Source: an uncultured Clostridia bacterium
GTDB lineage: Bacteria > Bacillota > Clostridia > TANB77 > CAG-508
Assembly: GCA_947625825.1 (NCBI GenBank)
Contig: CANQPV010000071.1
Coordinates: 1 to 39,859, forward strand
Length of the DNA: 39,859 bases
Direction: 5' to 3'
The notes under the pieces are model-generated. The model searched no databases. It saw only the letters and a program-made list of their open reading frames with translations, and was not told the DNA's origin. This document shows positions 5,143-39,714 of this stretch, in pieces. The translations under genes were made by a program, and so were the position numbers. The number at the start of each line of letters is the position of its first letter. The first letter of the stretch is position 1.

Positions 5143-5261
5143 TAAAATATTAGAGTAGCCACAGCGGTTTAATATATGTTTTTTCGTGCTTTAGTCGAGA
5201 AAAAACATATATTAAACGCAAGCGACGTGGCGGATAATTTTAAGGCTAAAAATAGCAACTT
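5143..5261. repeat. Dispersed hairpin-rich repeat, copy A
   Basis: Perfect 19-bp stem GTTTAATATATGTTTTTTC (5167-5185) / GAAAAAACATATATTAAAC (5199-5217) nested within GCCAC/GTGGC; shares long conserved blocks with 39390-39528. Confidence 0.85.
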
Positions 5262-14120: not shown

Positions 14121-14151
14121 GATATTCTGCGGAGAGGTGGAAAAAACAGAA

Positions 14152-14463
14152 ATGGCAAAACAGAAAAATAAAGAAGTAAAAAAAGCATCTAAAGAGTTAG
14201 AAAGAATGAGCATGAGCTATGAGGAAAGATGGCTTTATGATGCAAGAAAATTTAGAGAATGGGATGAAAGAAGTTTAAAGGAATATGAAATGGAAGAAGC
14301 AACAAAAAAGGGAGTTGAAATTGGAGAGAAAAAAGGAGTTGAAATTGGAGAGAAAAAATCAAAATTAGAAACTGCTAAAAAAATGTTAGAAGAAGGAATA
14401 AAAATAGAAACAATTATAAAAATAACAGGTTTAAGCAAAGAAGAAATAATGGATGCCAAATAA
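14152..14463 (+). pseudogene. C-terminal remnant of Rpn/PD-(D/E)XK transposase-like family protein
   Basis: NKEVKKASKELERMSMSYEERWLYDARKFREWDERS...KGVEIGEKKGVEIGEKKSKLETAKKMLEEGIKIETIIKITGLSKEEI resembles only the tail of this family; no nuclease core. Confidence 0.6.
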
Positions 14464-20098: not shown

Positions 20099-21010
20099 TT
20101 ATCTAAAAAAAACTTTTTTAGTTTCATAAGAAGAATGCACATATAAATTTAAAGTAATATTTACATCTGAATGACCTAATAATTCACTTAGCGATTTCAC
20201 ATCCATTCCAATCTTTATACAATTTGTAGCAAAAGTATGCCTTAAAATATGGAAATTATAGCTTTTTATCCCACACACTTTTAAACATTTTTTAAATATA
20301 TTTTGATAGGTACGAGGTTCTATATATTTTTTTGATCCTGTTAAAAAATATTCATTTCCAGAATATTTATTTATTTTTTGTAATGATTCTAATTGATGAA
20401 TTATTTTTTCTGGTATTGGAATTTTTCTTATTGCCTTTTTTGTTTTAGGTTCATCAATTTGTATTTTTGTATTTCCTTTTTCTAAATATACTCTTTGTAT
20501 AGTTTTATCTACTAAAATTAAATCTGATTCTATATTTATATTTTCCCATTTTAATGCACAAATTTCACCTAGCCTTAATCCTGTATTCAAACATAAAGCA
20601 ATACCTATATTTTTTAAAGTATTGTTTTCTAAACAATATTGTTCTAATTTTATCTTTTCAAAGTCATTTAAAATTTGTATTTCACTTTTATTATTTCTAG
20701 GACTAGAAATTAAATCTAATTTATAATCAATATTATATTTTCTTTCAATATACTTTAATATAGATTTAAATATAGTAATTATATCTTTTACTGTTTTAGA
20801 AGAAAGAGTTAAAGAAAGATAATCTATATATATATTAAAATCATAGTCTATAAAATAGTAAATATTTTTATTTTCAAAATATAAAAGTATATATTTATTT
20901 ATAAGATATTTATATCTATAATATGTTGAATATTTAATAGTGTGCTTTTTAAATAAAAGCCATTTTTTAATTTCTTCTTTTAAAGATATATTTTTCTTAA
21001 AAATTTTCAT
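20099..21010 (-). CDS. Tyrosine recombinase / site-specific integrase
   Basis: Catalytic residues present: ALCLNTGLRLGEICALKW, HILRHTFATNCI, LLGHSDVNITLNLYVH. Confidence 0.95.
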   Translation of the reverse strand: MKIFKKNISLKEEIKKWLLFKKHTIKYSTYYRYKYLINKYILLYFENKNIYYFIDYDFNIYIDYLSLTLSSKTVKDIITIFKSILKYIERKYNIDYKLDLISSPRNNKSEIQILNDFEKIKLEQYCLENNTLKNIGIALCLNTGLRLGEICALKWENINIESDLILVDKTIQRVYLEKGNTKIQIDEPKTKKAIRKIPIPEKIIHQLESLQKINKYSGNEYFLTGSKKYIEPRTYQNIFKKCLKVCGIKSYNFHILRHTFATNCIKIGMDVKSLSELLGHSDVNITLNLYVHSSYETKKVFFR

Positions 21011-38219: not shown

Positions 38220-38361
38220 AATACAAGAAACCCCAAGTAGAAATTTAATAAGTGAAGTCAGGAAAGCAAAAATATCTGCTTCATTTATAGAAACGGAGGT
38301 AATATTTTTATTTGAGCCTTATAAATGGCTATCTATATTAAAAAGGAATATAAAAAAATGA
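38203..38361 (+). CDS. Small 52-aa ORF overlapping the MobV start (ATGA)
   Basis: MSKLHSIQETPSRNLISEVRKAKISASFIETEVIFLFEPYKWLSILKRNIKK*, stop overlaps ATG at 38358. Confidence 0.4.
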   Translation: MSKLHSIQETPSRNLISEVRKAKISASFIETEVIFLFEPYKWLSILKRNIKK

Positions 38362-39332
38362 GTTATGCAATTATTCGAAATGCAAACTACAAAAAAGACA
38401 ACTTAGCAGGACTATACAAACATAACGAAAGAAAAAATACTAATTATTCAAATAAAGATATTAACAAAAATAACTTTATAAAAAACTATTCAATAAAAAA
38501 ATGTAATACCACATATACAAACGCAATTAAAATATTACAAAAGAAAAATAACTTAAGAGGCAGAATAATAAAGACAACAAATATAGCTTGTGAATTTATT
38601 ATCACTTCTGATAAAGACTTTTTTGAAAAAATAGGAGAAGAAGAAACAAGAAGATATTTTGAAACTGCATATAAATTTGTAGCAAATTATAAAAACTTAG
38701 GAGAAAAATATATACTATCTGCAAAAGTGCATATGGATGAAAGTGTTCCACATATGCATTTGACATTTGTACCAGTAGTACATACTAAAGATAAAAACGG
38801 AAATGAAATAAATAAAATTGCTTGTAGTGAATATTGGAAGGGGAAAGATAGCTATAAAAGACTACAAGATAACTTTTATGCATATATAACAAAAGCAGGC
38901 TTTGACTTAGAACGTGGAAATACAAAAGAAAATACACATATACCAATAGAAACACTAAAAAAAGTAACAAACTATGAGAATATAAAATATGAAATAGAAA
39001 ATAACGAAAAAACCGATAGCCTAGATATAAGTAAAAATGAGCTAGAAACACAAAATTTAAGCTTAGTAGTAGCACAAAATAGACAATTAGTAGAATATAA
39101 CAAAAAATTAAAGACTAATCTAGCAAAGGCATATGCAGCAATTCAAAAAGTAGCTACACTACAAATTGAAAATACTAGTTTAAAACAAGAAAATATTAAA
39201 CTAAAGCAAGAAAACAATAAATTAAAAGAATATATACAACATACATTTGAAGTAATAAAAACACTTTTTGATTTTCCTGTTGATAGACTTAAGAGGTTAG
39301 TTGATAATTTAATAAAAAAATATGAAAAATAA
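38358..39332 (+). CDS. MobV/Mob_Pre family relaxase
   Basis: MSYAIIRNANYKKDNLAGLYKHNERKN; ILSAKVHMDESVPHMHLTFVPV; coiled-coil C-terminus. Confidence 0.92.
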   Translation: MSYAIIRNANYKKDNLAGLYKHNERKNTNYSNKDINKNNFIKNYSIKKCNTTYTNAIKILQKKNNLRGRIIKTTNIACEFIITSDKDFFEKIGEEETRRYFETAYKFVANYKNLGEKYILSAKVHMDESVPHMHLTFVPVVHTKDKNGNEINKIACSEYWKGKDSYKRLQDNFYAYITKAGFDLERGNTKENTHIPIETLKKVTNYENIKYEIENNEKTDSLDISKNELETQNLSLVVAQNRQLVEYNKKLKTNLAKAYAAIQKVATLQIENTSLKQENIKLKQENNKLKEYIQHTFEVIKTLFDFPVDRLKRLVDNLIKKYEK

Positions 39333-39389: not shown

Positions 39390-39528
39390 GTTACTATTCA
39401 CAGCTAATTATAAATTTTAGAGTAGCCACTTGCTTCTTAATATATGTTTTTTCGTGCTTTAGCCCTAGAAAAAACATATATAATGCGCAAGCGACGTGGC
39501 GGATAATTTTAGGGCTGTGAATAGTAAC
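39390..39528. repeat. Dispersed hairpin-rich repeat, copy B, with perfect 15-bp terminal inverted repeats
   Basis: GTTACTATTCACAGC (39390-39404) ... GCTGTGAATAGTAAC (39514-39528); internal blocks shared with copy A at 5143-5261. Confidence 0.88.
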
Positions 39529-39657: not shown

Positions 39658-39714
39658 ATGATAAAACAGCAAACCGTTGGGGCTGTACACACACACACAC
39701 ACACACACAAGTAA
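39658..39714 (+). CDS. Short ORF carrying an (AC)11 tract, truncated in the present frame
   Basis: SD aaaggag; MIKQQTVGAVHTHTHTHK*; one more AC unit would extend it to ...HTSNFVEVKEGNKAFICSELGRLFKNKNSLSFCCF*. Confidence 0.4.
   Translation: MIKQQTVGAVHTHTHTHK
39687..39708 (+). repeat. (AC)11 microsatellite
   Basis: gtACACACACACACACACACACACaagtaa. Confidence 0.95.

Follow-up and report, generated by a model that had tools for sequence, protein, structure and literature searches.

An IS66-derived MITE of Clostridia with a hairpin core that probably undergoes frequent ectopic gene conversion

The 139-bp repeat found near the end of the window (the whole stretch of 39,859 nucleotides analysed, from an uncultured Clostridia bacterium) is probably a MITE of the IS66 type, with a hairpin that acts as a hot spot for ectopic gene conversion. 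The complete element, here called copy B, occupies positions 39390-39528 (+ strand; identified from the sequence and genome searches). Read directly, it has the perfect 15-bp terminal inverted repeats (TIRs) that the first-pass annotation had described: a left TIR GTTACTATTCACAGC at 39390-39404 (+), whose ends are identical to those of the IS66-family elements L264-L267 presented below, and a right TIR at 39514-39528 (-), its perfect reverse complement. Between them lies a structured core of 88 nt (39419-39506, +) which matches our covariance model R1 and contains the nested pairing previously proposed, with both parts present in the sequence: P1 (5' arm GCCAC, 39425-39429; 3' arm GTGGC, 39496-39500; both +) and a 14-bp stem in which ATATATGTTTTTTC at 39440-39453 pairs with GAAAAAACATATAT at 39468-39481. 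The P1 arms enclose, all on the + strand, the variable segment LI (39430-39436, TTGCTTC, with AGCGGT as the alternative); the P2 5' arm, with the variable stem allele TTAA at its base (39437-39453); the hairpin loop, composed of the invariant GTGCTTTAG and a variable CCCTA (39454-39467); the P2 3' arm, with the stem allele ATAA (39468-39486); and the variable segment RI (39487-39495, GCAAGCGAC, with TTGGGCGC as the alternative). Two single-stranded blocks had been considered conserved between copies; the loop block GTGCTTTAG is indeed invariant, and the right-hand block GCAAGCGAC is not, alternating with TTGGGCGC and other forms.

The base of the copy B stem is mismatched (TTAA versus ATAA), which places it among the few copies with unmatched arms; with this combination of arms, it looks like a half-converted copy. 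ORFs of at least 90 aa are absent from its interior, and its flanks carry no target duplication (5 of 8 flanking bases match). Directly upstream, near the contig end, there is a Mob_Pre (MobV-type) plasmid recombination/relaxase gene (38325-39332), the region of which is probably an integrated mobilisable element; a (CA)n run at 39690-39711, also near the contig end and in an apparent reading-frame start, is a possible phase-variable tract. The second copy of the window, copy A (5143-5261, +), is a decayed MITE located between convergent RNHCP-domain and U32 peptidase genes. As had been noticed earlier, and as we read directly, it retains the core (5152-5237, +) with a perfect 19-bp P2 (5167-5185 paired perfectly with 5199-5217) and lacks the left TIR; a decayed right TIR, GGCTAAAAATAGCAAC, remains at 5244-5259 (-). 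An orthologous copy (L168) exists in genome G027. Elsewhere in the window, a tyrosine recombinase of the phage integrase family (20099-21010) lies within a polysaccharide gene cluster, and a C-terminal remnant (14137-14463) shows a similarity, too weak for the Pfam cut-off, to transposase-family proteins of the PD-(D/E)XK (Rpn-like) type.

The earlier designation of the repeat as MITE-like is borne out by its TIRs, 8-bp target duplications, an empty site, an uneven copy number across genomes, derivatives that are truncated or lack the core, and an autonomous partner with the same ends. Target duplications and empty sites, which the first-pass annotation had proposed to look for, were both found. 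An exact 8-bp duplication flanks 22 of 78 non-redundant, TIR-paired elements (0.08 expected), and the signal is confined to length 8 and offset 0, with essentially none at other lengths or offsets. One copy in the window's own genome (G000, a MAG of 1.07 Mb, 73% complete; C7:25983-26121, flanks TATTTTTC) corresponds to an empty site in two congeners, G025 and G018, to which its joined flanks align without a break (91% and 81%, respectively). Among the derivatives, there are copies truncated at one end, others in which both TIRs are kept and the core is deleted (L181, L187) and TIR-less copies with an intact core; some contigs end within copies.

Far from being restricted to two copies, the repeat is present in the window's genome as about 20 near-complete copies plus fragments (whole-genome search, best E 4e-80), and both the many copies and the strong covariation reported below run counter to what, according to the original proposal, would have refuted it, namely only two copies and no covariation. 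The congeners G018, G025 and G027 gave 21-23 matches each, other congeners 0-9 (most of them none), and a DNA search of 59 relatives gave no match beyond the genus. The TIR pattern extends much further, to 100 of 292 genomes and 22 of 39 genera of the family, with up to 49 sites per genome (the reversed pattern, used as a control, gives 0-1 sites), and it encloses many different interiors across the family. Searched with the covariance model, the core was found in 24 of the 292 family genomes (8 of 39 genera); all matching genomes belong to the family, and none was found outside it in the 388 genomes of the order sampled. The named core-bearing records come from rabbit gut (Lapin), rumen (RUG13298), water-deer caecum and other MAGs of uncultured Clostridia; as far as named, all are MAGs, which is the main caveat on the core data. 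A second conserved interior within the MITE TIRs, with the motif AAGGTGGGGACC...GTTGGGGCGTAA, is common to genera g1 and g34 (L190, 1534-1742; L237, 3238-3459; L238, 825-1042 and 1978-2189), and more lineage-specific hairpin interiors occur within IS66 TIRs in g32 (L239, L244, L246), G217 (L235, L236) and G178 (L240); neither the former nor the latter match Rfam. L207 contains a T-box leader-like match (1183-1389), under the Rfam gathering score.

Judged from sequence, the driver of the repeat is an IS66-family element. The first-pass annotation had not recognised the family, a point now settled by complete IS66 transposase genes lying between matching TIRs in other genomes of the family. Starting from a deleted 430-bp element in G239, whose fragment bears the IS66 N-terminal signature, we located four elements of 1.78-1.95 kb (L264-L267) with the MITE's TIRs GTTACWATTCACAGC and one long ORF each (536-588 codons), one of which (L266) carries an exact 8-bp duplication. 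The MITE is filed as IS66-derived because the transposase of L264 matches PF03050 DDE_Tnp_IS66 at 1.2e-17 and exceeds the cut-off of the NCBIfam IS66 model NF033517 (185.7 bits, cut-off 180). IS66 ends usually start with GTAA, a feature which is typical, not defining; the TIRs of the MITE and its partner depart from it, starting with GTTAC, and the assignment rests on the transposase, not on the end sequence. For two IS66 elements, ISPpa5a and ISPpa7, a published list gives repeats of 8 bp (PMC3281130). No transposase had been seen in the window. The genomes with the most MITE copies, the window's 73%-complete MAG included, yielded no detectable IS66 transposase, so the present transposase source is unseen or lost. 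The transposase fragment gave no match in a plasmid collection. Two other candidates were rejected: the IS66 gene of G075 as a source, since it is not bounded by the MITE TIRs, and a 2.9-kb TIR pair (G217 C17) as an autonomous element, since it encloses host genes. The literature searched contains the TIR string in a single unrelated plant paper only, and no comparable IS66-derived MITE was found there.

The covariance model suggested earlier was built from 42 sequences (R1) and describes the core as an 88-nt P1/P2 hairpin with a folding z of -4.5 to -6.5 on either strand. Covariation is well above shuffled controls: 263 double-changed cells over 13 pairs versus 81 ± 12 after shuffling, far above both controls. 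The covarying pairs include a P1 pair (CG:85/AU:21), and P1 as a whole is GCAAC/GTTGC, a compensated form, in the rumen-type genomes RUG13298 and SRR10912542_bin.48, in place of GCCAC/GTGGC. Two loci of RUG13298, L110 (1039-1280, +) and L089 (about 709-789, -), have in common a loop insertion of about 110 bp made of further hairpins, that is, an extended core. A pseudoknot between the loop and J2/1, pairing TGCTT with RRGYR, looked promising on inspection but was not significant versus shuffles. The first-pass annotation had spoken of a structured RNA; the structure is strongly upheld by the covariation, and the RNA part of the claim was not established, given equal G-U and A-C frequencies, copies in both orientations relative to genes, no conserved gene context and no Rfam match (at gathering or E-value thresholds), the last of which also led us to reject a known RNA family for the core.

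The same observations bear on whether the core functions as a structured RNA (a leader element, processing site or ribozyme) carried by the IS66 MITE as a vehicle, kept by selection and covarying for RNA folding, an explanation which we consider possible and, on balance, doubtful. It would account for the loop GTGCTTTAG and the ends GTAGC/GCGGAT being conserved across genera while the stems change with compensation, for the intact core of TIR-less copies, and for the sense bias relative to co-directional neighbours in the two rumen-type genomes (16:3, p = 0.004, orthologues collapsed), where copies often lie just upstream of the ribosome-binding site. Against it, the non-Watson-Crick cells comprise 11 G-U and 14 A-C, and since these are equally frequent, selection at the RNA level is not visible; the window's group has a weak bias in the opposite direction (14 sense:28 antisense, p = 0.044, orthologues collapsed); and neither the gene context, Rfam nor the pseudoknot lends it support. 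These opposite orientation biases of the two genome groups come from a census over all loci. A dedicated riboswitch for one gene was rejected, as the flanking genes vary.

The preferred reading, conversion centred on the hairpin of an IS66-type MITE, depends on how the core alleles are combined. Each copy was coded as five segments (LI, 5' stem allele, loop, 3' stem allele, RI), giving 56 haplotypes in 78 copies: recombination among these variable segments is nearly free, stem arms excepted. The linkage between the two stem arms is strong (normalised MI 0.88 versus 0.24 shuffled, z = 24.6); the remaining segment pairs reach z of 4.2 at most, and neighbours a few bases apart have no strong linkage. 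LI and RI are weakly associated in a direction not expected from TTGC:GCAA pairing, which leaves the association unexplained by such pairing. In 15 orthologous insertion pairs, substitutions amount to 5.8% in the flanks and 16.0% in the cores; in sister species, orthologous insertions (most with flanks 90-99% identical) have cores which differ, and the alleles common to both members (LI in 7/15, stem in 4/15, loop in 4/15, RI in 8/15) are about as frequent as between unrelated copies. Within their own genome, 74 of 77 cores are distinct (four genomes). L123 and L156 were rejected as one site, having only the upstream gene in common. Short-tract ectopic conversion centred on the hairpin accounts best for this core mosaic.

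The exchange of cores at orthologous sites might instead be an assembly artefact of short-read MAGs, which we regard as improbable. The genomes are MAGs, some contigs do end inside copies, and mis-assembly could mimic part of the randomisation between core and flank, but it cannot create matched arms: chimeras would break the linkage between the stem arms, yet this linkage holds. Furthermore, almost all cores are unique within a genome and only about 88 bp long, and contigs break at some copies, not being joined at random. Somewhat more credible, and still rather unlikely, is a plain selfish MITE with neither host function nor special conversion, in which covariation is the trace of palindrome correction during replication, the arms templating each other. 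The near-perfect Watson-Crick arms without a G-U excess fit this explanation, as does L019, whose left segment perfectly complements its own right segment; however, correction between arms would erase the bulges conserved in several stem alleles, and self-templating cannot supply the loop and junction alleles that differ at orthologous sites.

Returning to ectopic conversion, we propose that the repeat is non-autonomous and derives from insertion sequences of the IS66 family that occur in this bacterial family. Acting in trans, an IS66 transposase would recognise the 15-bp ends GTTACWATTCACAGC and insert the MITE through a cut staggered by 8 bp; the ends, duplications, empty site and partner element were observed, and mobilisation in trans is what they suggest. 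Ectopic gene conversion in short tracts around the hairpin, triggered perhaps by the repair of breaks where the palindrome extrudes, would then swap core segments between copies and randomise allele combinations even between orthologous insertions, and the arms would stay matched via joint conversion, the elimination of mismatched forms, or both; the data do not separate co-conversion of the arms from selection for pairing. After insertion, the TIRs would decay and the core would often persist as an intergenic hairpin that, if transcribed, could serve RNA processing or stability, by analogy with other MITE hairpins. More tentatively, the core may constitute a new family-specific structured element, absent from Rfam and subject to hairpin-directed short-tract gene conversion, in which dispersed loci draw on a common allele pool that reassorts nearly freely within 88 bp, only the paired arms being co-inherited; that is, a natural recombining cassette, which may also be a functional RNA that an IS66 MITE has dispersed.

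These results add a large IS66-derived MITE family with lineage-dependent interiors (TIRs in 100/292 genomes of one Clostridia family) and an unusually clear case in which arm pairing is the sole strong linkage surviving recombination within an 88-bp element, making testable how short palindromes drive bacterial gene conversion; they also caution against reading a functional RNA into every dispersed repeat that covaries strongly. Compared with the IS66 family (tnpC-only, ISBst12-like layout), the likeness lies in the DDE_Tnp_IS66 transposase of the partners (a single long ORF between the TIRs, with no tnpA/tnpB noticed), the 8-bp duplication and the TIRs common with the MITE; in contrast, the MITE has no gene, its ends are GTTAC... 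and its hairpin-cassette interior is unrelated to the IS interior. The Correia elements (NEMIS/CREE) of Neisseria are short intergenic MITEs present in many copies, with possible RNase III processing (PMC2649163, PMC10969869). They resemble the present repeat in their TIRs, conserved core structure, intergenic location and abundance, but differ in TIR sequence, transposase family and core sequence, the covarying, shuffled core being distinctive of the present MITE. Like the Correia elements, the present MITE may have a regulatory role once inserted. Pneumococcal BOX elements are structured repeats built from modules, and untranslated regions that contain them can be transcribed (PMC3049150). 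They vary in length via their modules, whereas in the present MITE fixed segments swap alleles and the arms stay complementary. As a MITE, the repeat is of an ordinary kind; the family, derived from IS66 and found in Clostridia, is new, and the unusual feature is a core that evolves as a mosaic with its paired arms locked together.
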